From: a virus
Reading direction: 5' to 3' (one strand)
Length of the DNA: 22,646 nt
Virus record (IMG/VR): IMGVR_UViG_3300007538_003647
Coordinates: 1 to 22,646 of that record
A model generated the notes under the pieces. That model worked only from the letters and a program-made list of their open reading frames with translations. It was not told the origin of the DNA and did not search any database. This document shows, piece after piece, positions 7,237 through 22,646 of this stretch; within the stretch, counting starts at the first letter, position 1; the number at the start of each line of letters is the position of its first letter. Made by a program: the position numbers and the translations under genes.

Positions 7237-8954
7237 TGATAAACTTTAAAAAACTAAAATTCAAGAACTTTGGTTCATTTGGTAATTCTCTTACCGAAAT
7301 TGATTTTACTGAGAACAACTTGATTTTAGTTTCTGGTTTGAACGGACGAGGGAAGTCATTTGCTTACCTTGATGCAATAACATTTGCATTATATGGCAAA
7401 CCGTTTCGAAAGATAAATATTCCTCAACTTGTCAATACGATTAATGGCAAAAACTGCTTAGTTGAACTGGAGTTCTCTATTGGATCTTCAACCTTCAAGA
7501 TAAGAAGAGGATTATCTCCGAAACTCTTTGAGATTTACAAGAATGATGTTCTGATTGATCAGAACGCAAAGTCCAAGGATTATCAATTGTTGTTGGACGA
7601 GCAAATCTTAAAGATGAACTATAAGACTTTTACTCAGGTTGTCATTCTAGGCAGATCTTCCTTCGTCCCGTTCTTGCAGTTGTCTCCGGCAGATAGAAGA
7701 CAAATTATTGAGAATATTTTGGACATCAATGTTTTCTCCAACATGAATCAAATAGCAAAGGCTAAAGTATCATTATTGAAAGAGAATATTAATGATATTC
7801 AGAAAAAAATTGAAACAACCGAAGAAAAAATTCAGTATCAAGAAAAGTATATCCTTAAACTGGAAGAGCAAAGAAACTCCTCAAAAACTAAAACCGAGGA
7901 GAAAATGGATACCCTCAAGACAGAAATAAAGACTCTGATCGAGTCTATAAAATCTTTAAAGGAATCTGTTCATGATGGCATCGGTGAAGACTCACTTGAT
8001 AATCTGAGAGACAAAAAGTCTTCGTTAAATTCCGAGAAGAATACAGTCGTGAACAAGATTACCTCTGCACAAAAGAATCTAGATTTCTATGAAGACAATG
8101 AAAACTGTCCTGTATGTAAGCAGTCTATAGACTCACACTTCCGAGAGAATAAGATTAGTGAATCGTCTAGTTCCATTCAAACCTTTGAAACTGAACTAGA
8201 TGGTATCAAGAAAACTATAGAGGAATGTGAAGCAGAAATAAAAGAAGTTTCTGATAAGCATAAAGAGAATCAGAAGATTCAAGAACAGTATAGTATCAAC
8301 ATGAAAGTTCTTCAGAATTACCAGAAGGAATACGAAGAACTGGAAAAGGAACTTTCAAAAGAACCTGAGAATCAAGAAGAACTAGAAAAAGAAACTCAGG
8401 ATCTTCATGATCTGAATATTGTTCTTGAGAACCAAAAGCAATCTTTTGAAGATTTTAAACTGCAAAAGAAAGAGTATGACATTTGTGTTTCTTTGCTGAA
8501 GGATAGTGGTATCAAGAGTAAGATCATCAAACACTACTTGCCTCTTATCAACCGTGTGATAAATACCTTCCTCACTAACATGAACTTCTTTACAAACTTT
8601 GAATTGAACGAGGAGTTTGAAGAGATCATAAAGAGCAGACACCGTGATAAGTTCTCTTATATGTCTTTCAGTGAAGGAGAAAAACTCAGGATTGATCTTG
8701 CACTTCTATTTGCTTGGCGGGAAGTTGCTAGAGTAAAGAACAGTGCAAATTGCAATCTTTTGATTCTTGATGAGATCTTTGATTCTTCTCTCGACTCGAC
8801 TGGTACGGAAGAACTGATGAGGAATTTGAAGACACTCAAAAAGAATGGTAGTGTAATTGTAATCAGCCATAAGTTGGATCAGTTGGCAGATAGATTCGAT
8901 AAGACAGTTCTAGTGGAAAAGAAGAACAACTTTAGTTCTATAAAGATAAAATGA
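7236..8954 (+). CDS. 46: Recombination endonuclease subunit gp46 (Rad50/SbcC type)
   Basis: Product of 572 residues; T4 gp46 has 560. This ABC-type ATPase partners gp47 in DNA end resection. Walker A is GLNGRGKS at 34-41. A long coiled coil from about 175 to 425 is split by the zinc-hook CPVC at 291-294. The ABC signature is SFSEGEK at 477-483 and Walker B is LLILDEIFD with D512-E513. The ATG at 7236 shares its A with the stop of the SET-like gene (TGATG). A TTG directly upstream would add one residue and is less likely. The 3' end overlaps the next gene as ATGA. Confidence 0.96.
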   Translation: MINFKKLKFKNFGSFGNSLTEIDFTENNLILVSGLNGRGKSFAYLDAITFALYGKPFRKINIPQLVNTINGKNCLVELEFSIGSSTFKIRRGLSPKLFEIYKNDVLIDQNAKSKDYQLLLDEQILKMNYKTFTQVVILGRSSFVPFLQLSPADRRQIIENILDINVFSNMNQIAKAKVSLLKENINDIQKKIETTEEKIQYQEKYILKLEEQRNSSKTKTEEKMDTLKTEIKTLIESIKSLKESVHDGIGEDSLDNLRDKKSSLNSEKNTVVNKITSAQKNLDFYEDNENCPVCKQSIDSHFRENKISESSSSIQTFETELDGIKKTIEECEAEIKEVSDKHKENQKIQEQYSINMKVLQNYQKEYEELEKELSKEPENQEELEKETQDLHDLNIVLENQKQSFEDFKLQKKEYDICVSLLKDSGIKSKIIKHYLPLINRVINTFLTNMNFFTNFELNEEFEEIIKSRHRDKFSYMSFSEGEKLRIDLALLFAWREVARVKNSANCNLLILDEIFDSSLDSTGTEELMRNLKTLKKNGSVIVISHKLDQLADRFDKTVLVEKKNNFSSIKIK

Positions 8955-9718
8955 GTTTATTTGAAGAAACCTTAGAAGATTACCTCCCGTTAATTAAAGA
9001 CTGGATAGATCCTCTTCCCCCTCCGATTGTGGAGGAACATGAGGGATTTCTAATTGTTCGAGATGATTTGATTGGAGGTGGATCTAAAATGAGATTTGCT
9101 GATTATCTAATCCGATCACAGCCTGAAATTAAAGAGTGGGTGTATGGGAGTTCTCCTGCAACTGGCTATGCACAGATATCTCTTGCTCGTCTATGTACTA
9201 AGTACGACAAGAAGGCTGTTATCTTTATGGCAGATAGAGCAGTCGAAAAAAGACACCCTTACCAGTTGCAGGCAATACAAGAGGGTGCTATAATGAACTG
9301 GGTTCCAAACGGAATGCTTTCCGTTACGGAAAAAAGAGCAAGAGACTATGTATCAGATAATCCTACATCTCGTCGATTGCTTCCTATTGGTTTTGACGAC
9401 CCCACGGTCATCGCGTCGATCATTCGTGTGGCACAATCTATGGATGTTTCACCCAGTGAGGTTTGGACGGTTGGTTCTTCTGGAACTCTTACTAGGGGAT
9501 TACAACTCGCTTGGTCGGACGCGGAGTTTCACTGTGTTCGGGTGGGACACACGGGAACATATGGTCGGGCGAAAATTTACAAGTCGTCCTATGCTTTCAA
9601 CAAACCGACGAAGGTTCTTCCCCCGTTTCCGTCGGCGCCCACCTATGATGCGAAAGCGTGGGAGTTTATGTTAGAACACGCCTCACCAGGCGCTCTTTTT
9701 TGGAATGTAGGTGCATGA
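8951..9718 (+). CDS. PLP-dependent fold-type-II enzyme (ACC deaminase / D-cysteine desulfhydrase-like)
   Basis: Product of 255 residues. The N-terminal VRDDLIGGGSKMRFADYL has the R-D-D-L-x-G-G-x-x-K-x-R pattern of the ACC deaminase and D-cysteine desulfhydrase group, with K46 as the likely PLP-bearing lysine. GSSPATGYAQISLA (66-79) fits the substrate or carboxylate loop, and TVGSSGTLTRGLQLAW (173-188) fits the glycine/serine loop that holds the cofactor phosphate. It is much shorter than ACC deaminases (about 330 residues) but ends in a compact, seemingly intact C-terminus. It is locked between gp46 and a methyltransferase by ATGA overlaps on both sides. Bases 9390-9660 look richer in G+C than the first half. 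The fold is well supported. The reaction is not known and could be a deaminase, lyase or desulfhydrase, or could act on a modified nucleotide. Confidence 0.75.
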   Translation: MSLFEETLEDYLPLIKDWIDPLPPPIVEEHEGFLIVRDDLIGGGSKMRFADYLIRSQPEIKEWVYGSSPATGYAQISLARLCTKYDKKAVIFMADRAVEKRHPYQLQAIQEGAIMNWVPNGMLSVTEKRARDYVSDNPTSRRLLPIGFDDPTVIASIIRVAQSMDVSPSEVWTVGSSGTLTRGLQLAWSDAEFHCVRVGHTGTYGRAKIYKSSYAFNKPTKVLPPFPSAPTYDAKAWEFMLEHASPGALFWNVGA

Positions 9719-11301
9719 ATATACCATATGAACGAAATGAATATGTGATCAATCACAAGATGAATGTCTGTTTCGAGGATCTTCTCGAAATGGATGAGAC
9801 ACAATTTAGACAGTGGGTAGGTGAAATGCGTAATGCACTTTCCCATTCATGGGACACTTATGGTTGCCCACCAAGAACTGGAAAGTCGGTTCAGGATATC
9901 ATCGAAAACTGGAATAAGTTAGAAACATATCCTGTACACGAATTCGAGTTCGATGATGAATTGAGCGATGTCCCTAGAGATGTTATCATCAACAAGTCTA
10001 GAGGTGGTTCTGAAGTTGATCAGTTCTTCGAGAACATGTTTCGAACTCGCATCAACTATACTGATAAAGATAATGGGTATTCGATTTACGATCTGATTGC
10101 GGATCCTAGTAGATTTGAGCAAGTCTATAAGGGATCTCTAAGACATTTCCGTCGAGACTCTTTCTATAACTACGCACTATCTGCAATCAAAAATAGTACG
10201 AAGTATTCTATTGTCAGTGTCGATTCTGGTGAGAAGTGGATCGAGGCTTTCTTTACTCAATCAGATATCTTCAAGGGATATGACTTTTTACTTGAGCAAG
10301 TGAAGTTCAGAGAGGGAATGAACACTGGTTACTTCCAATTAGAGCAGTCAGATATTCTTCAATTGACAAAAGATCAGGTTCAAAAGTTTAAGGATTGTGG
10401 TTGGCTTAAGTATCGGCATCACTCTACCTTTGATATCGAGAACATGCCTGATGATCGGATCTATTCGATTCGGTTGTACCAGAAGGGTAAGAAGATCTTT
10501 CCTTCGTGCTTCAAGGCTTTTCGTATCGGATACATTCAACCCGCAGTCAATTTCCCACCCATGACTGCTAAATATCTCTATGAAAGATTTACTGAACATG
10601 TTAAGACTAAAGAAACTCTATACATTTATGACCCGAGTGCTGGCTGGGGTGGGCGGATTCTTGGTGCTATGTCTATGCGCGACGATCGCCGCGCCCATTA
10701 TCTTGGTGTTGACCCCAATCCTGATAATTATTTCGATAATGGCGTTTCTAAGTATTCTATGGTCGCTGATTTCTACAACCAAAGGACCACCAGATCCAAT
10801 TCTTTCTTCTCCGACACAAATGAATACACATTATATCAGTTAGGATCTGAAGAGGTTAGCAAGAATTCAGACTTTCAGCGGTACAAAGGAAAGATCGACT
10901 TGATCTTTACCTCCCCACCGTACTTCAACAGAGAAGCGTACAGTGAGGATGAGAATCAGTCTTACAAGAAGTATGGTTCGTCATACGAGTCTTGGAGGGA
11001 TGGTTTCCTGCGTCCCACCCTAGAGACTTGTGCAGAGTGGCTTGCACCTGGCAGATATCTGTTATGGAATATTGCCGACATTCTCGTTAAGGGTGACTAT
11101 CTTCCTCTAGAAGAAGATTCTAAAAATATTCTCGAAGAAATGGGGTTGGAATATAAATATAAACTGAAAATGGCTTTAGAAGGAATGCCTGGGCAAAATA
11201 GGGTGGATGAAAATGGGATACCTTTGTGTAAAAACTATTGCAAAGTGAACGGAAAGCATCTAAAATATGAACCCATCTATGTCTTTTGGAAACCGGAATG
11301 A
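9715..11301 (+). CDS. SAM-dependent nucleic-acid methyltransferase (TSPPY type)
   Basis: Product of 528 residues. The C-terminal half is a Rossmann methyltransferase: a P-x-x-AKYLYERF helix, then YDPSAGWGGRILGAM with D306 and G310-x-G-G (motif I, SAM binding), YLGVDPN (motif II), and DLIFTSPPY with T399-Y403 (motif IV). S/N/D-P-P-Y marks amino methylation of DNA bases (N6-adenine or N4-cytosine), and TSPPY is most common in N4-cytosine enzymes. Motif I comes before motif IV. The N-terminal ~290 residues carry no motif I recognise and may contain target recognition or a second activity. ATG 9715 overlaps the PLP enzyme stop as ATGA. A start 57 bases upstream lies inside that gene and is rejected. 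It could protect phage DNA from restriction, or cooperate with the PLP enzyme in a more elaborate modification. Confidence 0.82.
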   Translation: MNIPYERNEYVINHKMNVCFEDLLEMDETQFRQWVGEMRNALSHSWDTYGCPPRTGKSVQDIIENWNKLETYPVHEFEFDDELSDVPRDVIINKSRGGSEVDQFFENMFRTRINYTDKDNGYSIYDLIADPSRFEQVYKGSLRHFRRDSFYNYALSAIKNSTKYSIVSVDSGEKWIEAFFTQSDIFKGYDFLLEQVKFREGMNTGYFQLEQSDILQLTKDQVQKFKDCGWLKYRHHSTFDIENMPDDRIYSIRLYQKGKKIFPSCFKAFRIGYIQPAVNFPPMTAKYLYERFTEHVKTKETLYIYDPSAGWGGRILGAMSMRDDRRAHYLGVDPNPDNYFDNGVSKYSMVADFYNQRTTRSNSFFSDTNEYTLYQLGSEEVSKNSDFQRYKGKIDLIFTSPPYFNREAYSEDENQSYKKYGSSYESWRDGFLRPTLETCAEWLAPGRYLLWNIADILVKGDYLPLEEDSKNILEEMGLEYKYKLKMALEGMPGQNRVDENGIPLCKNYCKVNGKHLKYEPIYVFWKPE

Positions 11302-11990
11302 AACTGCAAGAAGAAACAATTGGATCAGTTCTTGACAAAATGGTTGACGACTACATCGTCAACCTCCGCGAAAATGGTTCGATCAGAAAGCCAAACATAA
11401 AGAATCTTGTTAAGGTTTACAAGCCAGCCAAAAAGGATCTTCGAGATCTTTTACAGGATTACAATATTTTACTTAGAGATGTCACAGATGCCATTGACGA
11501 AAAGAATGAGGATGTTGTTGAGGCTTGGGATTTTCTGAACAAAACTAAACTGAATCATCTTCGAGACTTTGTTGAAAATGTTTCTTCCTTCTTGGAAGAG
11601 AACAGTAAGATCAAGAGGCGAAGGAAGAGGGTTAAGCCAGAGATCTTAGTCAAGAATGTTCAGTACAAGGAAAGAGTAGAAAATTTTGAATCAGTTGATC
11701 CTGTGAAGATTATCGGATCTAAATACTTGGTGTGTTACAATCTGAAGTATGACAAGGTTGCCTTTTATGAAGCCACCGATGAACTGTCAGTGAAGGGAAC
11801 CACGGTGCAAGGTTTTGATCCAGAGAAGTCTTTTGTCAAGTCTGTCGGCAGATCAAAATTGACATATAAGTCGATCGCTGCCATGGGCATCAATAGCATC
11901 AAGTCAGAACTTCTTAAGATTAAAGCCAAGAATCTTCCTGCTACGGGAAGAATAAATTCAGACACACTTTTACTAAGAGTATCAAGATGA
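11298..11990 (+). CDS. Conserved-looking protein of unknown function
   Basis: Product of 230 residues that I do not recognise. The first ~110 residues are predicted helical and highly charged (around KDLRDLLQDYNILLRDVTD and KTKLNHLRDFVENVSSFLEE), followed by a basic patch KRRRKRVK. The second half is strand-rich (KIIGSKYLVCYNLKYDKVAFYEA) and lysine-rich to the end. The pattern of helical arm, basic linker and beta domain could suit nucleic-acid binding, but this is only a guess. ATG 11298 overlaps the methyltransferase stop (ATGA); an in-frame ATG at 11286 would add four residues. The 3' end overlaps the next gene as ATGA, so it belongs to the same translationally coupled group. Confidence 0.7.
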   Translation: MKLQEETIGSVLDKMVDDYIVNLRENGSIRKPNIKNLVKVYKPAKKDLRDLLQDYNILLRDVTDAIDEKNEDVVEAWDFLNKTKLNHLRDFVENVSSFLEENSKIKRRRKRVKPEILVKNVQYKERVENFESVDPVKIIGSKYLVCYNLKYDKVAFYEATDELSVKGTTVQGFDPEKSFVKSVGRSKLTYKSIAAMGINSIKSELLKIKAKNLPATGRINSDTLLLRVSR

Positions 11991-12286
11991 ATGTAAGAGG
12001 GGAATATCAGGAATACGACGAGAATGGTGAACCCGTTCAATACTTTCTCGACGATGTTGTAGAGTACAACAAGAAAACATATGTTGCCACTAGATCTGAA
12101 GATTTAGGTCATCCAATTCATGATGACAGTGGCTGGTTTCTTCTTGGACCTGGGGCATCTTTTTTCCGAACAGATTATGAGCCAATGTTCACCAAGGAGG
12201 GTGATAAATGGTTTGACACTACAACTGGTATAATGTATACTAGACATCAGCAAGACGATGGTGTCTTGTTTTGGATTGAAACGTGA
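11987..12286 (+). CDS. Small two-module protein, CBM5/12-like segment plus GDxWFDT repeat
   Basis: Product of 99 residues. Residues 15-55 (DDVVEYNKKTYVATRS, then GWFLLGPG) resemble the short beta modules of chitin-binding CBM5/12 type (x-V-x-Y-x-x-x-x-Y-x-A ... W-x-x-L). Residues 71-98 (GDKWFDTTTGIMYTRH, then VLFWIE) match the GDxWFDTxTGxLY...W-V/I-E motif that recurs in tail-fibre, collar and other structural proteins of marine phages. It is therefore probably a small surface or virion protein, although it lies in a replication operon. Joined to its neighbours by ATGA upstream and GTGA downstream. Function is inferred from motif resemblance only. Confidence 0.6.
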   Translation: MNVRGEYQEYDENGEPVQYFLDDVVEYNKKTYVATRSEDLGHPIHDDSGWFLLGPGASFFRTDYEPMFTKEGDKWFDTTTGIMYTRHQQDDGVLFWIET

Positions 12287-13131
12287 TTTTACTTGATAAC
12301 AACCAAATACTAATTGCTAGCATTTTCCAATCACTGAAAAACCCAGAACTAGAAGAAAAGAACTTTCTTCGTCATTTGGTACTCAACACCTACCGAATGT
12401 ATAGATCCTCCTTCAAAAAGGAGTATGGGGATCTGGTAATCTGTCACGATTCGTCTAACTGCTGGAGGAAGGATATTTTTCCAGAGTACAAGGCAAACCG
12501 AAAAGAAAGGCAGAAGACAGATTCTGTTGATTGGAACGATATCTACAACAAACTTCATGAAATCCGTGAGGAGATCAGTAAGAATTTTCCTTACAAGAAT
12601 ATTCGGGTAGAAAGAACAGAAGCAGATGATATCATTTCTGTCCTTGCCACAAAGTATTCTAAAACAGAAAAGGTTCTGATCGTTTCTAATGATAAGGACT
12701 TTAAGCAGTTGCTTCATTTACCAAATGTGAAGCAGTATGCACCAATGGGCAATTCGTTTGTTGAGTGTGAGAACCCTCATGACTTTCTACTTCAACATAT
12801 TATGATGGGTGATGCGTCAGACGGCATTCCAAATGTTCTCTCTGACAATGACACCTTCGTCGTAAAAGAGAAGAGACAGAAGAGACTCACAAAGAAGATG
12901 GTTAGTTTGATTCTAGAAGAGTATGAATCTAACAACATTCCTCCTTCCTTTTGTTCTGATGGATGGGAAAGAAACCAGAAATTGATTGATCTTTCGAAGA
13001 TTCCTGATAACATACAGCATTCCATTCTGGAAGCGTATGAGAACGCGGAGTGTGGAGATAGATCTTCAATGCTCAATTACATGATTGAGAACAGGCTTAA
13101 AAATTTAATAAACAGTTTGGAGGACTTTTAA
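12283..13131 (+). CDS. rnh: RNase H / 5'-3' FEN-family exonuclease
   Basis: Product of 282 residues; T4 RNase H has 305. It removes RNA primers and adjoining DNA from lagging-strand fragments. Acidic metal-binding residues of the FEN family are in order: D5 (LLDNNQ), D56 (CHDSSNCWRKDIFPEYKANR, the classic arch-base segment), E113/D115/D116 (TEADD), D137 and D139 (SNDKD), and D177/D180 (GDASDGIPN), followed by the start of a helix-hairpin-helix-like region. The start codon is GTG at 12283, overlapping the previous stop as GTGA; the next in-frame ATG is well inside the conserved region. The stop shares a base with the following ATG (TAATG). Confidence 0.92.
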   Translation: MILLDNNQILIASIFQSLKNPELEEKNFLRHLVLNTYRMYRSSFKKEYGDLVICHDSSNCWRKDIFPEYKANRKERQKTDSVDWNDIYNKLHEIREEISKNFPYKNIRVERTEADDIISVLATKYSKTEKVLIVSNDKDFKQLLHLPNVKQYAPMGNSFVECENPHDFLLQHIMMGDASDGIPNVLSDNDTFVVKEKRQKRLTKKMVSLILEEYESNNIPPSFCSDGWERNQKLIDLSKIPDNIQHSILEAYENAECGDRSSMLNYMIENRLKNLINSLEDF

Positions 13132-14007: not shown

Positions 14008-14946
14008 ATGCTAGATCATGGTTTGTTCGTCGAGAAGTATCGTCCCCAGACACTGAGTGACTGCATACTTCCAAGTGAAATCAAAGACACTCTCACCAAG
14101 ATGGTGGAGTCTGGTGAATGCCACAACCTGCTTTTTCATGGTGGAGCAGGTTGTGGTAAAACCTCCGTTGCAAGAGCAATCTGCAACGATCTTGGAGCAG
14201 ATTACATTCTTATCAACTGCTCTGAGGATGGAAATATTGACACCTTGAGAACAAAGATTCGAAGTTTTGCAAGCACTGTTTCTTTGAATGGTAATGCAAA
14301 GGTTGTTATTCTAGATGAGTTTGATTATAGCAACGCTCAGAGTATTCAACCTGCTCTTCGTGGAGCGATTGAGGAGTTCTCTAAGAACTGTCGATTTATC
14401 ATCACTTGTAATTACAAGAATCGAATCATCTCCCCGATTCATTCTCGGTTCACGAATGTTGATTTTACAATCAAGAGTGATGAGAAGCCAAAGATTGCAC
14501 TGAAGATTCTTGGAAGGATTCAAGATATTCTGAAGACTGAGGGTATTCAATACGATCAAGAAGTTCTTGCAAAACTTATCACCAAGCACTTTCCAGACAT
14601 TCGTAGAATGCTGAATGAACTACAGAGGTATTCGTACAACGGTTCAATTGATGTTGGCATTCTTTCTTCGATGGGAGATGTTCATGTCAAGGATTTGATG
14701 AAAGCGATGAGTCAGAAGAACTTTGCTGAAGTTCGTAAGTGGGTTGTGAACAACCTAGATAATTCATACTCTGATATTTTTCGATCAATCTATGAGGGAC
14801 TGTCGGAGTATGTCAAGCCAAGTTCTATTCCTCAAGCAATCGTGACTCTTGGCGAATATCAATACAAGGCTGCTTTTGTTGCGGATCAGGAAATTAATCT
14901 AACTGCTCTGATGGTGGAGTTGATGATGGAGTGTGATTTCAAATGA
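14008..14946 (+). CDS. 44: Clamp loader ATPase subunit gp44
   Basis: Product of 312 residues; T4 gp44 has 319. This AAA+ subunit forms a tetramer which, with one gp62, opens gp45 and places it on primer-template DNA. It starts with FVEKYRPQTLSDCILP, the usual N-terminal signature of clamp-loader ATPases. Walker A is HGGAGCGKT at 44-52, Walker B is VVILDEFD with D103-E104, and SRF is at 146-148 (arginine-finger motif); the helical collar follows. GGAGG at 13991-13995 is 12 bases upstream, a long spacing. The stop overlaps the sulfotransferase start (ATGA), whereas in T4 and marine relatives gp62 normally follows directly. Confidence 0.96.
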   Translation: MLDHGLFVEKYRPQTLSDCILPSEIKDTLTKMVESGECHNLLFHGGAGCGKTSVARAICNDLGADYILINCSEDGNIDTLRTKIRSFASTVSLNGNAKVVILDEFDYSNAQSIQPALRGAIEEFSKNCRFIITCNYKNRIISPIHSRFTNVDFTIKSDEKPKIALKILGRIQDILKTEGIQYDQEVLAKLITKHFPDIRRMLNELQRYSYNGSIDVGILSSMGDVHVKDLMKAMSQKNFAEVRKWVVNNLDNSYSDIFRSIYEGLSEYVKPSSIPQAIVTLGEYQYKAAFVADQEINLTALMVELMMECDFK

Positions 14947-15497
14947 AAGTCTTCGGTATAGGAATGTTCAAGACAGGAACTACCTCTCTTGAAAAGGCTC
15001 TGGGTATTCTGGGTATCAGGCATATTCCGGGAGCAAATTATGGAGAATTGTTTTCATCATATATGAATGGTGTACATCAGGAGTACGATCCAGATGGATT
15101 TACTCCAGAGAAAATAGAAGCGATTAAACATGTAACAAGCCTTTTTGATGGATTCAGTGATCATCCTTGGATGTGGTCATATAAAGTTTGTCACCAGTTA
15201 TATCCAGACGCTAAGTTTATTTTGACTCTTCGAGAAAATTCTGATAAGATAGCAGACAGTGATATTAATTTCTGGAAGACGCATGGTGTGAGTGAAGAAG
15301 ACATTCCAGATAGAGAAGATTTTATTTTAAGGTATGAGAATCATAATGATATGGTTCGAGATTATTTTAAGGATAGTGATAACTATATCGAACTTTGTTG
15401 GGAGAATGGTGATGGATGGGAAGAACTCTGTCAGTTTTTAGATCTTCCTGTACCAAATGTAAAATTTCCTCATAAGAACAGGGGTGTATATTCATGA
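14943..15497 (+). CDS. Sulfotransferase-family protein
   Basis: Product of 184 residues. The N-terminal FGIGMFKTGTTSLEKAL is the PAPS 5'-phosphosulfate-binding loop (K10-T-G-T-T-S15) in the form typical of the Sulfotransfer_4-like group. YPDAKFILTLRE supplies the strand and R that bind the 3'-phosphate, and the end (WEELCQFLDLPVPNVKFPHKN) matches the common C-terminal W-x-x-L-C-x-F-L-x-x-P-x-P...P-H-x-N. It should transfer sulfate from PAPS to a hydroxyl acceptor, plausibly a glycan or small molecule; the acceptor is unknown. It overlaps gp44 and the GroES-like gene by ATGA, so it is co-translated with replication proteins, an unexpected place. It may functionally belong with the glycan cassette downstream of regA. 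Confidence 0.85.
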   Translation: MKVFGIGMFKTGTTSLEKALGILGIRHIPGANYGELFSSYMNGVHQEYDPDGFTPEKIEAIKHVTSLFDGFSDHPWMWSYKVCHQLYPDAKFILTLRENSDKIADSDINFWKTHGVSEEDIPDREDFILRYENHNDMVRDYFKDSDNYIELCWENGDGWEELCQFLDLPVPNVKFPHKNRGVYS

Positions 15498-15781
15498 AAA
15501 AGTTTGTTCCAGTAAGAGATCTAGTAGCACTAGAAACCACTCTAAAGGAAAAGAAGACAACCGAGCAAGGTATTATCTACACCGATAATCAAATTGAAGA
15601 TAATTACTACGTTTGGAGTACAGTATATGCGGTTGGTCCAGAAGTTACCGATGTAAAGCCTGGGGATCAGGTTCTATGGAAACTCGGATCTAATGATGGT
15701 GCCTTCTACAAGGATGGTGATTTTGTTGTGGATGTCGTGAAGTTCTCTGATCTATTGGTTGTACGAAATGAACCTGAGTGA
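15494..15781 (+). CDS. GroES-like co-chaperonin
   Basis: Product of 95 residues, the normal GroES length. FVPVRDLVALE matches the opening P-x-x-D-R/L-V-x-x strand. EQGIIYTDNQIEDN takes the place of the mobile GroEL-binding loop, whose usual form is G-G-I-V/L-L. YAVGPEVTDVKPGDQVLW matches V-x-x-V-G-x-G...V-k-x-G-D-x-V, and VVDVVKFSDLLVV is the C-terminal strand. In T4 the analogous gp31 replaces GroES so that GroEL can fold gp23; this protein is closer to true GroES than to gp31. It lies between gp44 and gp62, joined by ATGA upstream and overlapping gp62 by 14 bases. It most likely assists folding of the capsid protein. Confidence 0.88.
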   Translation: MKKFVPVRDLVALETTLKEKKTTEQGIIYTDNQIEDNYYVWSTVYAVGPEVTDVKPGDQVLWKLGSNDGAFYKDGDFVVDVVKFSDLLVVRNEPE

Positions 15782-16145
15782 TTTCCTAAATTCTATTAAT
15801 CATAAGAAGAATAATCTCTTTCAAGAAAACGAAGAGTTTGCTGAAAAGTCGTATTTACCCTATATCGTAAATAGGTGTCTATCCTATTTTCCAGATACAA
15901 TTCTTCATGCCAATCTGATGAACATGAATTCTGGACTTCCGAAACGAATGCAGTATGAGTATTACCTCAACAGCATTCGGAAGAACAAGAGATTTTCCAA
16001 GACTCATAAGAACGAGATGACTGATGAAATGTCTGTTGTGGTGAAGCATTTTTCGATCTCCAGATCTAAGGCAAGAGAGATTATTCCTCTGCTCAAGACT
16101 GAGTTCTTGGATGAACTGAAGGACATCTACCTCAAAAATCACTAA
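15768..16145 (+). CDS. 62: Clamp loader small subunit gp62
   Basis: Product of 125 residues, shorter than T4 gp62 (187) but of the length seen in marine T4-like phages. It is the single non-ATPase subunit that completes the gp44/gp62 loader. Resemblance to T4 is seen around KSYLPYIVNRCLSYFPDTIL (T4 VENALSQFPECMPAV), NLMNMNSGLPKRMQYEYYLN (T4 NLIGSGLSDEAHFNYLM) and KNKRFSKTHK (T4 RGKRYGKWAK). ATG 15768 is preferred to a TTG nine bases upstream. It lies within the end of the GroES gene and has no obvious ribosome binding site, so translation probably depends on coupling. A late promoter begins three bases after the stop. Confidence 0.88.
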   Translation: MNLSDFLNSINHKKNNLFQENEEFAEKSYLPYIVNRCLSYFPDTILHANLMNMNSGLPKRMQYEYYLNSIRKNKRFSKTHKNEMTDEMSVVVKHFSISRSKAREIIPLLKTEFLDELKDIYLKNH

Positions 16146-16147
16146 AG

Positions 16148-16155
16148 TATAAATA
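16148..16155 (+). promoter_or_regulatory. T4-type late promoter (TATAAATA) upstream of regA
   Basis: A second perfect late octamer, in the 37-base spacer between gp62 and regA and followed by a leader with AGAGG (16169-16173) nine bases before the regA ATG. The expected start is near 16161. It would drive regA and the glycan cassette that follows without a terminator. In T4 regA is mainly an early/middle gene, so a late promoter here is a notable difference. Confidence 0.8.
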
Positions 16156-16182
16156 CTAAAAAGTGAATAGAGGTATAACAAC

Positions 16183-16578
16183 ATGGAAGATGTATTTAAA
16201 GGATTGGGTGTACGAGTTAAATTAGAAGATGAAGATGACTTTCTGATCATAAAAGAAACTCTGACAAGGATGGGAGTTTCTTCTAGAAAAGAGAATAAGT
16301 TATTTCAGTCTTGCCATATTCTTCACAAGAAGGGAGAATATGCGATTGTTCATTTCAAAGAATTGTTTATTCTAGATGGATTAGAAAGTGACATCTCAGA
16401 GAGCGATGTAGGTAGAAGAAATCTTATTGCAAAACTTCTTGAAGAATGGGAACTTTGTGATATAATCGACACAGATCGAATAAAGGAACCTCTTGCGAGT
16501 ATGGGACAGATAAAGATTCTTTCTCATAAGAACAAGCATGAGTGGGAGTTGATACCGAAATACCACATAGGAAAATGA
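16183..16578 (+). CDS. regA: Translational repressor RegA
   Basis: Product of 131 residues; T4 RegA has 122. RegA binds the start-codon region of early phage mRNAs and blocks ribosome access. The match to T4 is strong: DDFLIIKETLTRMGV (T4 EDFLKVKETLTRMGI), FQSCHILHKKGEYAIVHFKE (T4 YQSCHILQKKGLYYIVHFKE), RRNLIAKLLEEWELCDII (T4 RRDSIAWLLEDWGLIEIV) and KHEWELIPKYHIGK (T4 KHEWKLVPKYTIGN). The last block carries residues linked to RNA binding. About nine extra residues lie at the N-terminus. The next gene starts three bases after the stop, so regA shares its transcript with the glycosyltransferase cassette. Confidence 0.97.
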   Translation: MEDVFKGLGVRVKLEDEDDFLIIKETLTRMGVSSRKENKLFQSCHILHKKGEYAIVHFKELFILDGLESDISESDVGRRNLIAKLLEEWELCDIIDTDRIKEPLASMGQIKILSHKNKHEWELIPKYHIGK

Positions 16579-16581
16579 TTT

Positions 16582-17214
16582 ATGAAAGTGATTAGTTTTT
16601 ATACTGTAGGTGACGACAACGATTATTACGAAAAATGTGCTGAACGACTTCGAAAGAATTGTTCTGACCTAAAAATAGATTTGGACTTGGTAGAAAAGAA
16701 ATCGCTCGGATCTTATCGAGTTAATTGTCTCTCAAAACCCCAGTTCATTCTCGACAAACTACAAGAGCATAATCAACCTGTTACATGGATTGATGTCGAT
16801 ACTATTTTTAGACAGTATCCGGCGGATTTTTATAACGAAAACTTGAAGAATGTTGACATAGCATTCTCCTCTTCGATACCAAATCTGGCTGGGATGAAAG
16901 CATCTCCTTTGTACTTTGCGAATAATGAAATTTCCAAGTCATTTCTTGGGGAGTGGATTCATATAGCGTCTGAAGTTTTGAAGCAGATGGATGTGAATTT
17001 CGATCATGAGATTTTATTTGGTATGTTCGAAAGACATAAGGAAGATTGTATGTACGGAGTATTCCCTCCAACATATTGTGTCTGGCCAGGTCATTCGAAT
17101 GAACACACCGTGATCGAAATGGGACTTTCAGACGTTCCTGACAAGGTGGAAGTTTTGAAGAAGATGGGAATTGATGGTGATCTTTTGAATGCTCAAACGA
17201 CAGGAATATTATGA
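16582..17214 (+). CDS. GT-A-type glycosyltransferase-like protein
   Basis: Product of 210 residues. The N-terminal part has the KVISFYTVGDDNDYYEKCA opening strand and helix seen in many phage nucleotide-sugar transferases. PVTWIDVDTIFRQYP holds the metal-binding D71-x-D73, with a preceding conserved KPQFILDKL helix. The rest (HEILFGMF, CMYGVFPPTYCVWPGH) fits an acceptor-binding half. It is the first gene of the sugar cassette, with AGGAAA at 16569-16574 upstream, and its stop overlaps the next gene as ATGA. Donor sugar and acceptor cannot be read from the sequence. Confidence 0.75.
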   Translation: MKVISFYTVGDDNDYYEKCAERLRKNCSDLKIDLDLVEKKSLGSYRVNCLSKPQFILDKLQEHNQPVTWIDVDTIFRQYPADFYNENLKNVDIAFSSSIPNLAGMKASPLYFANNEISKSFLGEWIHIASEVLKQMDVNFDHEILFGMFERHKEDCMYGVFPPTYCVWPGHSNEHTVIEMGLSDVPDKVEVLKKMGIDGDLLNAQTTGIL

Positions 17215-18062
17215 ATCGAATACAATGTATAGGTGCTGGGTTTGATTTAAATCATTCTACATGCTCAAACAAAAAACCAAAAACATTCGAGTGGACTTCG
17301 GATCCAGTCGAGAATCAGATTCTAATCGACAAAGCGATTTTGTTCTCGAATAAGATAGATAAAGGTTCTAGTAAGAAAAGATATGGATGGGTTTGCGAGT
17401 CTACGTCTATTGTTCCTGATGTCGTCGATGCTTTGTTTCATTATCATAAAATTATTTTCCAAGAAGGGAACTTTGAAGGAATATTTACATGTAGTGAAAA
17501 GTTATTAGATCTCGACGAAAGATTTATTCTTTGTCCTCCAGTCAGTAATCTTCCTTGGATTCCAGAAGATGGGTGGAATATCTACCCAAAGACAAAGAGT
17601 ATATCAATGTTCTGTTCACCCAAGGTTATGTGTGAGGGACACCGATTTAGACATAAGATAGCGGAAAAGAATCTTTCCAATCTAGATCTATTCGGTGGTG
17701 CTTTTGGATCACCACGGATAGGAATGTCAAACGATTTAAATACAAAATGGAATGATAAGAGAGATGGATTGTGTGATTATCGTTTTCATCTTGTTATCGA
17801 GAACGAGAAAGAGAATAATTATTACACAGAAAAACTAACAGATTGTTTTGCAACGGGTACTATTCCAATTTACTGGGGATGTGATAATGTTGGTGACTTT
17901 TTTGATGAGCATGGTATAATAAAGTTCACGGAAGATTTTGATCTAAATACATTGTCTGAAGAGTTGTATGAGGAGATGTTGCCTCATGTGAAGAATAATT
18001 TGGAAATTGTGAAATCTTTAGAGATGGTTGATGATGCAATCGCAAGACATATTTTCGACTAG
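17211..18062 (+). CDS. GT10 (fucosyltransferase-like) glycosyltransferase, copy 1
   Basis: Product of 283 residues. The C-terminal half carries the GT10 signature: CDYRFHLVIENEKENNYYTE (E197-N198, then T-E-K 206-208) and TIPIYWGCDNVGDFF, where GDP-fucose is bound in family members. The N-terminal half (RYGWVCESTSIVPDVVDALF, then GIFTCSEKLL) fits the acceptor domain. GT10 enzymes use GDP-L-fucose or related GDP-deoxysugars. Since a ColC/GDP-fucose-synthase and a ColD-like gene follow, this enzyme may transfer fucose or colitose. It shares the motif block with the gene at 20092, a likely paralogue. Joined upstream by ATGA; overlaps the next gene by about 32 bases. Confidence 0.82.
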   Translation: MNRIQCIGAGFDLNHSTCSNKKPKTFEWTSDPVENQILIDKAILFSNKIDKGSSKKRYGWVCESTSIVPDVVDALFHYHKIIFQEGNFEGIFTCSEKLLDLDERFILCPPVSNLPWIPEDGWNIYPKTKSISMFCSPKVMCEGHRFRHKIAEKNLSNLDLFGGAFGSPRIGMSNDLNTKWNDKRDGLCDYRFHLVIENEKENNYYTEKLTDCFATGTIPIYWGCDNVGDFFDEHGIIKFTEDFDLNTLSEELYEEMLPHVKNNLEIVKSLEMVDDAIARHIFD

Positions 18063-18957
18063 AGACTATTTAATAACAGGTGGTTCTGGACTGGTTGGAA
18101 CTGCGCTGAATGGTGGTAAAAAACCAAGCAGTTCGGTTCTTAACTTACTATCTCCCAAGTCAACATTCGAATGGTTTGAAAAAAATCAAGTAAGGAATGT
18201 TATACACTGTGCAGGTAGAGTCGGTGGTATAGGTGCAAACTCTGCTAAAAAAGGAACATTCCTTCGTGAAAACTTGATGATGACTATAAACTTGTTTGAG
18301 TCATCAAGAGTTTCTGGTGTCGATAAAATTGCTTCATTTCTTTCGACATGTATTTTCCCAGACAATGTTAAGTATCCTTTGACTGTTGATCAGATCTTTA
18401 ATGGTCCTCCCCATGACAGCAATTATGGTTACGCACATGCAAAGAGAATGCAATATGTTCAAGCGATGGCTTATAGGGAAGAATATGGCATGAACATTGT
18501 TTCTTTGGTTCCATGTAACATCTACGGAATTAATGACAATTTCAACATATCTTCTGGTCATGTAATACCATCGTTGATTCATAAGTTTTATGCTGCGATG
18601 AAGAATAAGACTAATGTTGAAATCTGGGGAACTGGTAGAGAAAAAAGAGAGTTTCTTTTTGCGAATGACCTTCACCAGATCGTTGCATGGGTAATGGACA
18701 ACTATAATGAGCAAGAACCTTTGATAATTTCTCCAGACGAAGAGTATGAAATAGGCGATGTAGTAGAATTGATAAGAAAAGAATTTGAATTTAAGGGAGA
18801 AGTCACTTATAATGGTGAGATGTCTGGACAATTCAGAAAACCATCAGACTCTTCTAAGTTAAAGAAACTGATGAATCCAGAGTTTACTACGTTGGAAAGT
18901 GGTATCAGGCAAACAGTAAATTGGTTTGTGAAAAACTATAAAAAGGCTAGAAAATGA
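18031..18957 (+). CDS. GDP-L-fucose synthase / GDP-L-colitose synthase (ColC)-like epimerase-reductase
   Basis: Product of 308 residues, an extended SDR enzyme. TGGSGLVG at 16-23 is the nucleotide-binding loop. NVIHCAGRVGGIGANSAKKG resembles GDP-fucose synthase (HLAAxVGGIxAN). Catalytic S105 with C107 (LSTCIFP), Y134-x-x-x-K138 (YGYAHAK) and H177 (SSGHVIP) match the S107/C109, Y136/K140 and H179 residues of the E. coli enzyme. EIWGTGREKREFLF matches the substrate-binding WGTGxPxREFLYVDD. It epimerises and reduces a GDP-4-keto-deoxyhexose. With the ColD-like gene immediately after it (ATGA overlap), ColC (GDP-colitose) is at least as likely as fucose synthase. Starts are ATG 18031 or 18034 within the previous gene. 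Confidence 0.88.
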   Translation: MMQSQDIFSTRDYLITGGSGLVGTALNGGKKPSSSVLNLLSPKSTFEWFEKNQVRNVIHCAGRVGGIGANSAKKGTFLRENLMMTINLFESSRVSGVDKIASFLSTCIFPDNVKYPLTVDQIFNGPPHDSNYGYAHAKRMQYVQAMAYREEYGMNIVSLVPCNIYGINDNFNISSGHVIPSLIHKFYAAMKNKTNVEIWGTGREKREFLFANDLHQIVAWVMDNYNEQEPLIISPDEEYEIGDVVELIRKEFEFKGEVTYNGEMSGQFRKPSDSSKLKKLMNPEFTTLESGIRQTVNWFVKNYKKARK

Positions 18958-20102
18958 CAAAGATTTTTGATGAATGGAAGTTGATGGATGAAGCAATTCC
19001 TCAAGATCATCTGGAGGAGATGTCTAACTTTATTCTGTCTGGTAATAAATTAACCTATGGCGAAAACATTAAACGGTTTGAGAATGCGTGGTCAAACTGG
19101 CAAGGATGTAAGTATTCCGTTTTTTGTAACTCTGGATCATCTGCAAATTTTCTTGCAGTGAATGCTGTTGAGCCAGATCATGGTAAAGCACTCTGGGTTT
19201 CCTCTGCTTGCACATGGTCAACAACAGTTTCTCCTATCATGTTGAAAAATGATCACCTTCAATTGTGTGATGTAAATCTGAATAACTTTGCACCCGATCT
19301 AAACGTACTCGAAGAGATTTTTAGGAATCAATCCCCGAAGTATCTTTTCTTAGTTCACCTTCTGGGGTTTAATTGTTATTCCGAGGAACTACAACAACTC
19401 TGTGACATGTATGGTGTAACAATTCTAGAAGATTGCTGTGAAGCGCACGGTGCAAACTACAAGGGAACAAAGGTTGGTAACTTTGGTAAAACCTCATCAT
19501 TTTCTTTCTACTATGGTCATCATATGACCACCATTGAAGGTGGTATGGTTTGTACTAATGATGAGTCTATTTACAAGAGACTTCTTCTTCTCCGTTCACA
19601 TGGACTCATGAGAGAGTTGCCTCAAGAAATGCAACAGGAACATCTTGAAGAGATGGTAGATCCTAATTTTACTTTCTTGATTCCAGGCTTCAACATGAGA
19701 TCTACCGAGATCAATGCCATACTTGGTATGAAGCAGATAGAAGATCTGGACAGTAGAATAGAAATTAGAAATGAAAACTATTTTAGATTTTGTGACAGAC
19801 TAGATGGAAACAAGTATGAAAATAACTTTGATCGAACTGGGATGTCCAACTTCTGTTTTCCTGTAATCAGAAAAGATGGTAGAATCTCTGAAGTTAAGAA
19901 AACATTACTAGAAAACAAAATTCATATTCGACCAATAATCGCTGGTAGTTTGTATGAGCATCCATTTATGAAGAGTGTTAACATGAAACGCTATGATAAG
20001 AACTCTTCATATATTCACAACAACGGAATTTACGTTGGTAATAATCACACAATAAATAATGACATGGTAGATTATTTAACGGACACTCTAAATGCTATAT
20101 GA
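18954..20102 (+). CDS. ColD-like PLP-dependent GDP-4-keto-6-deoxymannose 3-dehydratase
   Basis: Product of 382 residues of the DegT/DnrJ/EryC1 family; E. coli ColD is 388. The family lysine that binds PLP (SFF-x-x-K-x-x-x-x-x-EGG) is replaced: SFSFYYGHHMTTIEGG puts H189 there, the mark of ColD, which removes the 3-hydroxyl instead of transaminating. Other ColD-like blocks include SSGS-type CNSGSSANFL, ACTWSTTVSPI, LLGFNCYSEELQQL, LEDCCEAHGA, LLRSHGLMRELP (ColD IRAHGWTRNLP), FLIPGFNMRSTEIN, HIRPIIAG and NGIYVGNNHT (ColD NGLFVGNHQI). The cysteine cluster of the Fe-S RfbH/AscC 3-dehydrases, which also have this His, is not seen. The substrate GDP-4-keto-6-deoxymannose would come from Gmd, which is not in the window. 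The product would pass to the ColC-like enzyme encoded just upstream. Confidence 0.87.
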   Translation: MTKIFDEWKLMDEAIPQDHLEEMSNFILSGNKLTYGENIKRFENAWSNWQGCKYSVFCNSGSSANFLAVNAVEPDHGKALWVSSACTWSTTVSPIMLKNDHLQLCDVNLNNFAPDLNVLEEIFRNQSPKYLFLVHLLGFNCYSEELQQLCDMYGVTILEDCCEAHGANYKGTKVGNFGKTSSFSFYYGHHMTTIEGGMVCTNDESIYKRLLLLRSHGLMRELPQEMQQEHLEEMVDPNFTFLIPGFNMRSTEINAILGMKQIEDLDSRIEIRNENYFRFCDRLDGNKYENNFDRTGMSNFCFPVIRKDGRISEVKKTLLENKIHIRPIIAGSLYEHPFMKSVNMKRYDKNSSYIHNNGIYVGNNHTINNDMVDYLTDTLNAI

Positions 20103-20964
20103 CCCTGTTATAAAGAACGGAGAATATCTTTATCGCCCAGATTTAAAGTATGAATTTCCAGTAGAAATTCACTTTACAAGAATGGAAACTTTTGACGACG
20201 AAAACTCGTTCAAAGTTTTAGTTCTTTCCAATGAATCAATGATGTCTCCAAACAGATCAACAGTTGATGATGTGATTCGATATCATCAAAGATATGATCT
20301 GATTCTTTGTGCAGATGACTATATCATAACCTTTTGTCCTAATGCAATACTGTTCCCGTATGGAAGTACTTGGTTAAACCGAGGAAAGATAAATCATCCA
20401 GACGGGTTGGGGTGTTATGAGGATGATGTCGAAGTTTTTCGTAACAATAACAAAAAGTTTGGAGTGAGTTTTCTTGCATCATGGTATAGAATTGATCGAC
20501 CTGGTTACAATTTAAGAAGACAGTTGTGGCAAAGACAGTTTGATATAAAGATTCCTAGAAGTTTTTATACTAGCACTAAATGTTTTTCACCAGATGCTAG
20601 GGATGCTTTTCCTTTACCTAACGGAGAAAAGGAAACCTTGTTCGATAGCATCTATCATGTTTGTATAGAGAATCATTCTGTTGGTCATTATTTCACCGAA
20701 AAGATAGTGGATGCTTTTCTATCAGAGACTATGCCAATATATTGGGGATGTCCTAACATAGAAGACTACTTTAATCCAGAAGGTATTATAACTTTCCAAA
20801 CGATTGACGAGTTGATAAACAAAATAAATAGTTTGACGCCAGACTATTATCATGATAGACTTAATGTCGTTCAAGAAAATAAGAAGCGAGCGATAGAGTT
20901 TGCTAATTTTGATGAAAGAATTTTCAACACCATAAAGGATTTTTATAATGATTCCCTTGACTGA
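20092..20964 (+). CDS. GT10 (fucosyltransferase-like) glycosyltransferase, copy 2
   Basis: Product of 290 residues. SIYHVCIENHSVGHYFTEK (E193-N194, T-E-K 202-204) and TMPIYWGCPNIEDYFNPEG are the GT10 signature, close to the block of the gene at 17211. FGVSFLASWYRIDRPGYNLR fits the segment just before the donor-binding half, where bacterial GT10 enzymes have an arginine-rich loop. The N-terminal half (VLVLSNESMMSP, ILCADDYIIT) forms the acceptor domain. The ATG lies 11 bases inside the ColD-like gene. It probably transfers the GDP-sugar made by the two preceding enzymes; the acceptor is unknown. Confidence 0.82.
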   Translation: MLYDPVIKNGEYLYRPDLKYEFPVEIHFTRMETFDDENSFKVLVLSNESMMSPNRSTVDDVIRYHQRYDLILCADDYIITFCPNAILFPYGSTWLNRGKINHPDGLGCYEDDVEVFRNNNKKFGVSFLASWYRIDRPGYNLRRQLWQRQFDIKIPRSFYTSTKCFSPDARDAFPLPNGEKETLFDSIYHVCIENHSVGHYFTEKIVDAFLSETMPIYWGCPNIEDYFNPEGIITFQTIDELINKINSLTPDYYHDRLNVVQENKKRAIEFANFDERIFNTIKDFYNDSLD

Positions 20965-21580
20965 AGAATATCATCCAAAACAAGTCAAGTCTGTTATGGA
21001 TTTGATGGATAAATTTGATATAACTGATATGATTTATTGTGATGTTGGTTCCTGTGTAGGAGAACTGTTGCAATATTATTCTCAGATGATGAGTTTTGGT
21101 TATGCTTTTGAGCCAAATGTAGGTAACTATAATTTCTTGGTAGAAAACTATCTCAGTGATAAAGTTGTTATAGAAAACTTGGCTGTTTCTTCAGAGTGTG
21201 GAGTTATAGATTTTCTTTCTACAGAGAAAAAAGGGGATCATTGTTCGCGCAATAAAAAATACGCCGACAAGAATAATGAGTCTTCTGATTATGTTGTTAA
21301 ATCTGTTCCTTGCGTGACACTAGATTCATACTTTGAAAATAAAGAAATTGATTTCATTAAGGTAGATGTTGAGGGTGAAGAGTGGGAAGTTCTCAGGGGT
21401 GCTCAGAATCTCATGAGAAACACTAATGTTATTTTTCAAGTAGAATTTCACAATCGAGATAATTGGGATCAGAGAGAAATTATTTATGATAACGGTTACG
21501 AAATATACTCTCTAGAATTAGAAAAGTATGATAGAGATTGTGAACGTCCCTACCAAGCGTTTTTAATGAAAGGTGATTGA
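20948..21580 (+). CDS. FkbM-family SAM-dependent methyltransferase
   Basis: Product of 210 residues. YCDVGSCVGELLQYY (motif I, D32), GYAFEPNVGNYNFL with the acidic E55 that binds SAM ribose, ENLAVSSECGVIDFL and DFIKVDVEGEEWEVLRGA (138-152) are the ordered blocks of the FkbM family, whose members mostly O-methylate sugars or secondary metabolites. In this cassette it may methylate the transferred deoxysugar. It overlaps the GT10 gene by 17 bases and shares a base with the next gene (TGATG). Confidence 0.9.
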   Translation: MIPLTEEYHPKQVKSVMDLMDKFDITDMIYCDVGSCVGELLQYYSQMMSFGYAFEPNVGNYNFLVENYLSDKVVIENLAVSSECGVIDFLSTEKKGDHCSRNKKYADKNNESSDYVVKSVPCVTLDSYFENKEIDFIKVDVEGEEWEVLRGAQNLMRNTNVIFQVEFHNRDNWDQREIIYDNGYEIYSLELEKYDRDCERPYQAFLMKGD

Positions 21581-22197
21581 TGCCAAAGGATCCTCAGCAT
21601 ATAAAACTTAGTATTCTAATACTTTCCATCCCGTCTAGAATCGAAAAACTTCAAAAACTTATTTCAAGATTAGAATCCCAGATTACAGACAATGATGTAG
21701 AGATTCTGTCTCTTCTTGATAACAAGTCTTTTCACATTTACGAGAAACGTAACGAACTTCTAGAGATGGCTAGAGGTGATTATATTTGTTTCCTAGATGA
21801 CGATGATTTCATCACAGAAGATTATGTTCCTTCAGTTCTAAAAGCGATTGATGAGAATCCTGATGTTATCTGTTTTAAACAACATTGTAACTACAATGGA
21901 TATCCTTTCGATGTTTACTTTGACATCAACCATCAATGGTCACCAATGGAACAACTTCGGTTTAATGGAATAAGTTTCAACGACCTCAAGCGACCTCCTT
22001 TTCATATGTGTCCGTTCAAGTCGGAAATATCCAAGTCTGAAAAGTTCAGAGAAAAGTATGACTCGAACGGTCAGTCATGTGAAGATGCAGACTGGTTGCT
22101 TAGACTATATCCCAAGGTAAAGAGTCAAGTTTTTATTGACAAGGTTTTGCATCAATATCTTTATAGTAGTCAAGAAACGGAGTCGATCCTAAAATGA
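21580..22197 (+). CDS. Family 2-type glycosyltransferase
   Basis: Product of 205 residues. HIKLSILILSIPSRIEKLQK is the N-terminal GT2 strand and helix, KRNELLEMARGDYICFLDDD has the R-N-x-x-x-x-x-x-G-x-Y-x-x-F-L-D-D-D pattern with the metal-binding DDDD at 73-76, and SCEDADWLLRLYP carries the ED acceptor-side motif. Short for the family but apparently complete. ATG 21580 shares its A with the FkbM stop; a TTG just upstream would add one residue. The stop overlaps the next gene as ATGA. Sugar and acceptor are unknown. Confidence 0.85.
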   Translation: MPKDPQHIKLSILILSIPSRIEKLQKLISRLESQITDNDVEILSLLDNKSFHIYEKRNELLEMARGDYICFLDDDDFITEDYVPSVLKAIDENPDVICFKQHCNYNGYPFDVYFDINHQWSPMEQLRFNGISFNDLKRPPFHMCPFKSEISKSEKFREKYDSNGQSCEDADWLLRLYPKVKSQVFIDKVLHQYLYSSQETESILK

Positions 22198-22646
22198 GAG
22201 TTATAGCATTTTCTCTTTGGGGTGACAATCCTCTTTACACTGTTGGTGCGATTCGAAACGCGGAGATAGCAGCAGACATTTATCCAGAATGGACATGTCG
22301 TTATTATGTTGGTAATACTGTTCCTTCTGAGATTACAGATCGTCTGAGATCAATGACAAACACCGAAGTTGTGTTTCGTGATTCGCCAGGCACTCCACAC
22401 TCTATGTTCTGGAGATTTGAGCCTGCATGGGATTCTTCCGTTGAATATATGATTGTTCGTGATACGGATAGTCGCTTGGGTGTTCGAGAGAAGGCAGCAG
22501 TAGATGAATGGATCGAGAGTGGGAAGCGTCTTCATATCATGAGGGATCATCCTTACCACAACACTCCAATCATGGGAGGTATGTGGGGATGTAAACCAGT
22601 TCTGCTTCCAGACATGCAGTTTATGGCAGAAGAATGGCTGAAGACA
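22194..22646 (+). CDS. Glycosyltransferase-like protein, N-terminal part (runs off the window)
   Basis: 151 residues are visible before the right edge. MRVIAFSLWGDNPLYTVGAI is a typical opening of phage and bacterial sugar-transferase-like proteins. IVRDTDSRL has the metal-binding D90-x-D92. REKAAVDEWIESGKRLHIMR and PIMGGMWGCKP are segments I associate with a recurring unnamed family of marine phage and surface-glycan loci. ATGA overlap with the preceding GT2 gene puts it in the same cassette. No stop is reached, so length and C-terminus are unknown. Confidence 0.75.
   Translation, partial: MRVIAFSLWGDNPLYTVGAIRNAEIAADIYPEWTCRYYVGNTVPSEITDRLRSMTNTEVVFRDSPGTPHSMFWRFEPAWDSSVEYMIVRDTDSRLGVREKAAVDEWIESGKRLHIMRDHPYHNTPIMGGMWGCKPVLLPDMQFMAEEWLKT

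Follow-up and report, generated by a model that had tools for sequence, protein, structure and literature searches.

We analyzed a 22,646-base IMG/VR virus record (IMGVR_UViG_3300007538_003647; hereafter the window), which is probably an incomplete piece of its genome and which derives from a T4-like aquatic phage. From position 16,582 to the contig end, directly 3' of the T4 core gene regA, lie eight open reading frames (ORFs) on the + strand, each overlapping its neighbor (by 4, 35, 4, 11, 17, 4 and 4 nt, in order). This multi-gene run of sugar-nucleotide and glycosyltransferase genes in a phage genome is a phage lipopolysaccharide (LPS)/glycan biosynthesis cluster. Our main subject is its third and fourth genes, which encode a short-chain dehydrogenase/reductase (SDR) of the GDP-L-fucose synthase (GFS) family and a pyridoxal 5'-phosphate (PLP) enzyme resembling the 3-dehydratase ColD. 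The genes of the cassette are as follows:

16582..17214, + strand: glycosyltransferase-like protein of the nucleotide-diphospho-sugar transferase type, with a DVD motif (PF03407, 19.6 bits, below the 22-bit cut-off)
17211..18062, + strand: GT10 fucosyltransferase-family glycosyltransferase (A) (PF00852, 34.8 bits, above cut-off; best PDB match Helicobacter pylori alpha1,3-fucosyltransferase, FucT)
18028..18957, + strand: predicted GFS/ColC-type SDR (5-epimerase/4-reductase; Epimerase SDR family), with a TTG start and an alternative ATG at 18031 or 18034
18954..20102, + strand: predicted ColD-type PLP 3-dehydratase of the DegT family, with His for the catalytic Lys and no Fe-S segment
20092..20964, + strand: GT10-like glycosyltransferase (B) (PF00852, 21.0 bits, below the 23.9 cut-off; best PDB match H. 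pylori alpha1,3-fucosyltransferase, 45.7 bits)
20948..21580, + strand: FkbM-family methyltransferase, accessory (PF05050, 62.7 bits)
21577..22197, + strand: GT2 glycosyltransferase (PF00535, 44.6 bits)
22194..22646, + strand: putative DTD-motif transferase, truncated by the contig end (full form of 223 aa at L004:6326-6997)

A sequence-only reading of this DNA had described eight overlapping genes, two GT10 transferases, a GT2 transferase and an FkbM methyltransferase, and these assignments held, with GT10 B resting on its FucT match. Its two DxD-type transferases fared less evenly, since one is a marginal family match and the other keeps its DTD motif while Pfam and PHROG searches of its product gave no family. 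The 35-nt overlap before the SDR gene shrinks to ~29-32 nt if translation starts at either ATG after the TTG. The run is not a chance arrangement, because two relatives, L004 (99.1% identical to the window over 15234-20923 and 96% over 21576-22646) and L008 (PLP enzyme 69% identical), keep the order of its genes with the exception of FkbM, which both lack; the first transferase also has homologues in the same position in L008 and L015. The FkbM difference between the window and L004 is a recent insertion or deletion, and the GT10 that lies upstream of FkbM in the window has a new C-terminus in L004. L004 also reaches 3.3 kb beyond the window edge, where it carries methyltransferase-like, WbqC and unassigned genes.

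We found that the best solved relative of the PLP enzyme is Escherichia coli ColD (184 bits vs. 107 for E1, the CDP-4-keto-6-deoxyglucose 3-dehydratase, and 95 for GDP-perosamine synthase). Its H189 aligns with ColD H188, at the position of the aminotransferase catalytic lysine, where 170 of 179 aligned sequences have His, and its H216 and R220 correspond to ColD H215 and R219, two places at which E1 has Trp and Cys. The cysteine segment that binds the [2Fe-2S] cluster of E1 is absent: Cys occurs in two of the eight E1 cysteine columns (one of eight in E. coli ColD). According to a review (PMC8987622), His in place of Lys defines the 3-dehydratases, and lack of the [2Fe-2S] motif sets ColD apart from E1 and SpnQ. 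The ten best Foldseek matches of the enzyme's AlphaFold model (predicted local distance difference test, pLDDT, 92.9) were all ColD entries, among them 3b8x, the GDP-perosamine complex. In a tree of 143 sequences, the enzyme belongs to a clade made up of 24 phage sequences (99%), which the split between ColD and E1/RfbH leaves with ColD, and the splits of ColD from E1 and from the Lys-type enzymes had 98-99% support in the Shimodaira-Hasegawa-like approximate likelihood ratio test (SH-aLRT), with E. coli ColD itself on a long branch. The best NCBIfam model was RfbH, reached at 174 of 423 bits; we nevertheless rejected an E1/RfbH assignment because of the absent Fe-S cysteines and the tree placement. 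Taken together, the active site, the missing Fe-S segment, the fold search, the tree and the co-occurrence with a GFS-type reductase and with Gmd described below make the predicted ColD-type identity well supported, in line with the sequence-only reading, and the phylogeny that had been proposed as a check places the gene with ColD and not with E1/RfbH or the Lys-type enzymes.

The partner reductase is a homologue of GFS with every catalytic residue in place (S107, C109, Y136, K140, H179 and R209 in GFS numbering). It matches human GFS at 247 bits, E. coli GFS at 135 bits and NF047922 at 198 bits, and its model (pLDDT 94) superposes on GFS 4bl5 with a TM-score of 0.94. E. coli ColC and Fcl carry the same catalytic residues, and the sequence therefore cannot pick one over the other. 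We tried to name the SDR as ColC by similarity or by tree, and this failed: identity is 30% to E. coli ColC and 29% to E. coli Fcl, and the free tree puts the window SDR in a phage-dominated clade (30 sequences, 98%) separate from the group to which Fcl and ColC both belong, although a joint clade with ColC is not rejected by the approximately unbiased (AU) test (p-AU = 0.454). Within the SDR tree, several cyanophage Fcls that have no ColD with them (P-SSM2, S-SKS1, S-SCSM1 and DSL-LC03) stand beside ColD-paired ones. The family half of the earlier label, 'ColC/GDP-fucose-synthase-like', thus stood while its ColC half did not, and 'ColC' as used here names a function guessed from the neighboring genes and does not identify the enzyme.

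At their junction the two genes share 4 bp, and they are arranged as colC and colD are in E. coli O55. To place them among their relatives, we assembled 36 viral loci with a ColD 46-69% identical to the window enzyme; a GFS-type SDR lies within 100 bp of ColD in 22 of these, and the pair is adjacent in 19 of 43 other viral loci. In L009 and L011-L014 it lies in the gp45-gp44 interval, in the window and L008 it follows regA, and given that its position shifts in this way between T4 core genes, the pair behaves as a unit. Both SDR and ColD are under purifying selection (pairwise dN/dS, the ratio of nonsynonymous to synonymous substitution rates, of 0.04-0.17 where computable), neither has an amino-acid change between the window and L004, and intact ORFs occur in dozens of contigs; the cassette is widespread among related phages. 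In the course of this survey we also noted that the 642-kb megaphage L005 has two kinds of 3-dehydratase gene, one ColD-type (with GFS) and one E1/RfbH-type (11023-13122 and 19511-20812), and that L061, L064 and L065 carry E1-type genes as well.

Gmd, the enzyme that would supply the precursor GDP-4-keto-6-deoxy-D-mannose, recurs with the pair. Among 35 records with a window-type ColD, 13 hold a Gmd-family protein at 350 bits or more, four of which exceed the TIGR01472 cut-off, and in the isolates S-CAM7 and ACG-2014f gmd, GFS and ColD follow one another directly. Since the records are fragments, a missing Gmd in the others means little; in LR756502, a 642-kb megaphage, the GFS-ColD pair occurs and no strong Gmd does. 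Other enzymes of this kind keep company with ColD too. A Lys-type DegT aminotransferase lies directly 5' of the ColD-type gene in four loci (L015:8840-9988, L022:8901-9998, L023:8861-9994 and L035:8893-9987), and those of L015 and L023, the two tested, match GDP-perosamine synthase at 225-231 bits; L008 has a Lys-type aminotransferase ~4 kb downstream. A ColD together with a perosamine-synthase-like enzyme could yield GDP-3-deoxyperosamine, and the recurring arrangement hints at a choice among several GDP-deoxysugars. Separately, nonulosonic-acid genes stand beside ColD, GFS and Gmd in the T4-like contig L023 (NeuB, PF03102, 246 bits, and a NeuA-like gene; L023:15172-16727).

What the analysis shows is the order of the genes, their families and catalytic residues, the predicted folds, the purifying selection on the pair and its recurrence with Gmd in relatives; from these we infer a substrate, a product, an acceptor and a role, the chemical steps following from the families. 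We think it somewhat probable that the pair forms a two-enzyme phage module for a GDP-3,6-dideoxyhexose set amid glycosyltransferases, and GDP-L-colitose would be the likeliest product, because a ColD-type enzyme recurs paired with GFS and relatives carry Gmd. Outside this setting, colitose is known as an uncommon sugar of bacterial surfaces. Under this scheme, Gmd, from the host or encoded elsewhere in the phage genome (genomes of relatives such as S-CAM7 are ~200 kb), would make GDP-4-keto-6-deoxy-D-mannose; the ColD-type enzyme would load pyridoxamine 5'-phosphate, eliminate the C3 hydroxyl with His189 as acid/base and hydrolyze the enamine, with glutamate recharging the enzyme; and the GFS-type SDR would epimerize C5 and reduce C4 using NADPH to give GDP-L-colitose. 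The GT10 and other transferases would then attach the sugar to a glycan of the host cell or the virion, and FkbM may O-methylate the attached sugar. The run lacks flippase and polymerase genes, so the sugar more likely decorates the virion or a glycan that the host already has than goes into a newly built O-antigen. Our first guess at a role is remodeling of the host surface glycan during infection; surface remodeling and virion decoration are indistinguishable from these data. Superinfection exclusion, a role that the sequence-only reading had raised, is an older published suggestion for cyanophage LPS clusters, those of P-SSM2 and S-SSM7 having been proposed to block other phages (PMC2984593).

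Several observations nonetheless weigh against a colitose module. The PLP enzyme is only 31% identical to E. coli ColD, and at ColD position 329 the window and L008 have His where nearly all other ColD-type sequences shown have Glu. The SDR, as set out above, resembles ColC no more than it resembles Fcl. An adjacent GFS-type SDR is lacking in 14 of the 36 related loci. Neither the 22.6-kb window nor the further 3.3 kb seen through L004 contains gmd, in agreement with its reported absence from the window, and the records from which L016 and L036 come, 74 and 82 kb long, hold no strong Gmd match. Flippase, polymerase and ligase genes are all missing from the cassette. Finally, relatives of the GT10s also occur in phages, such as S-SM2, outside the listed matches of the PLP enzyme, and the GT10s are for that reason not tied to colitose.

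The most serious competitor turns on the reductase. The SDR may be an ordinary GDP-L-fucose synthase that happens to stand beside ColD, in which case GDP-L-fucose would be the main donor for the GT10s and colitose a side product or a substrate of another transferase. GDP-L-fucose is a possible product of this SDR, and the description of the pair as 'committed' to GDP-colitose was for that reason too strong. GT10 is a fucosyltransferase family, both window members are nearest to H. pylori FucT, GDP-fucose synthases are the nearest solved relatives of the SDR, and several cyanophage Fcls without ColD are neighbors of ColD-paired ones in the tree. However, the window SDR overlaps ColD and not gmd, SDR and ColD are repeatedly found together and change place together, and ColD and GFS compete for one intermediate, such that a selected ColD with an unused product is unlikely; on balance we hold this explanation to be rather unlikely. 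An improbable alternative is that the ColD-type product is aminated instead, giving GDP-3-deoxyperosamine (4-amino-3,4,6-trideoxy-D-mannose) or GDP-perosamine: the Lys-type aminotransferases that precede ColD in four relatives, and the one downstream in L008, speak for such a route, but neither the window nor the 5.2 kb that follow ColD in L004 contain an aminotransferase gene of this type, and the window pairs its ColD with a complete GFS active site.

It is very unlikely that the PLP enzyme serves as a 3-dehydratase for a nucleotide sugar of the CDP-glucose or dTDP series, outside the GDP pathway; the RfbH model and the deposition of the S-CAM7 copy as a putative CDP-4-keto-6-deoxy-D-glucose 3-dehydrase invite that reading, whereas E1/RfbH forms a separate supported clade, needs Fe-S cysteines that the window enzyme lacks, and is not what the GFS- and Gmd-family partners would predict. 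That the cassette is a passenger or headful 'stuffer' without function, as its differing gene content among close relatives (L004 without FkbM) might suggest, strikes us as highly doubtful in view of the intact ORFs, the purifying selection and the unchanged SDR and ColD. With the colitose module preferred, we tentatively extend it to a broader picture, itself on the unlikely side, in which T4-like phages swap enzymes that use GDP-4-keto-6-deoxymannose (GFS, ColD, a perosamine-synthase-like aminotransferase and Gmd) and so choose among fucose, colitose, perosamine and possibly 3-deoxyperosamine, placing new phage-specified sugars on host or virion glycans.

Upstream of the cassette, two features bear on its anchoring and expression:

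16148..16155, + strand: T4-type late-promoter consensus TATAAATA, a candidate promoter for regA and the cassette (35 nt before the regA start; identified from the consensus match only)
16183..16578, + strand: regA translational regulator, a T4 core gene that anchors the locus outside the pathway (PF01818, 135.8 bits)

We take TATAAATA to be the T4 late-promoter consensus. The exact octamer is also found at 137-144, 32 nt before gp23, where a late promoter is expected, and upstream of regA in L004, L011-L014 and L022, with (T/A)ATAAATA in L008, L015 and L023; in all, 10 of 16 sequences have one or the other form ahead of regA. No exact copy lies upstream of gp44-gp47, and scans for sigma-70-like promoters and for terminators were near chance. 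In T4, regA is not usually regarded as a late gene. Late transcription of regA and the cassette is possible on the basis of these matches.

The rest of the window carries T4-type core genes in T4 order, of which gp23, gp55, gp44 and regA were confirmed by family or similarity searches and uvsW, gp47, gp46, gp45 and gp62 were named by sequence and position in the window. We attempted to assign a host from the gp23 capsid and gp44 clamp-loader proteins and could not, as both are ~54-58% identical to cyanophage and pelagiphage counterparts alike. No tRNAs or Rfam matches were found in the window, and PADLOC detected no defense system in the cassette. A sulfotransferase-domain protein between gp44 and a GroES-like gene (14943-15497; PF17784, 111.5 bits) is possibly a further glycan modifier. 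Elsewhere, a SET-domain protein lies between gp47 and gp46 (6484-7236; PF00856, 28.7 bits), and a 255-aa protein (8951-9718) that by eye resembles cysteine-synthase-like PLP enzymes, with no Pfam match, is followed by a 547-aa DNA-methylase-like protein (9658-11301).

Compared with known systems, E1/RfbH shares with the window enzyme the fold of a PLP 3-dehydratase with His for Lys and differs by its [2Fe-2S] cluster and by W and C at ColD positions 215 and 219. The colC-colD and gmd locus of E. coli O55 (NC_013941) has the same two families in the same order with the same 4-bp overlap, as well as the active-site histidine of ColD and the catalytic residues of GFS/ColC; however, identity to the window proteins is 31% (ColD) and 30% (ColC), and the O55 genes belong to an O-antigen locus on the chromosome that also holds wzx, wzy, manB, manC, gmd and a fucosyltransferase gene annotated as alpha-1,2, whereas the window pair lies among phage replication genes, accompanied by GT10s and with no gmd, wzx or wzy in view. 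The triads of S-CAM7 and ACG-2014f, in sugar cassettes upstream of a tail-fiber gene, are likewise from T4-like phages and run from GFS through a ColD-type enzyme to glycosyltransferases, but they include gmd, their ColD is ~36% identical, their SDR belongs to the other GFS clade, and their PLP genes were entered in the database as an aminotransferase or a CDP-dehydrase and not annotated for colitose. The LPS/GDP-fucose clusters of P-SSM2, S-SSM7 and S-SCSM1 also combine a phage Gmd, a GDP-fucose synthase and many glycosyltransferases (PMC3037559, PMC9602691), with Gmd and GDP-fucose synthase both carried by S-SCSM1 (PMC9602691); in contrast to the window, P-SSM2 and S-SCSM1 have no ColD-type dehydratase in the stretches examined, and such cyanophage clusters have been considered possible stuffer DNA (PMC3037559). 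Our literature search found no paper tying colitose or ColD to a phage genome. Phage LPS-type clusters have been known since P-SSM2, and what this analysis adds is a ColD-GFS module, conserved and under selection in T4-like phages, for which a specific two-step chemistry can be named. Because that chemistry is named, selected and recurrent, the question becomes testable: detection of a 3,6-dideoxyhexose that the phage alone can add would reveal whether infecting phages put a surface sugar of their own in place.

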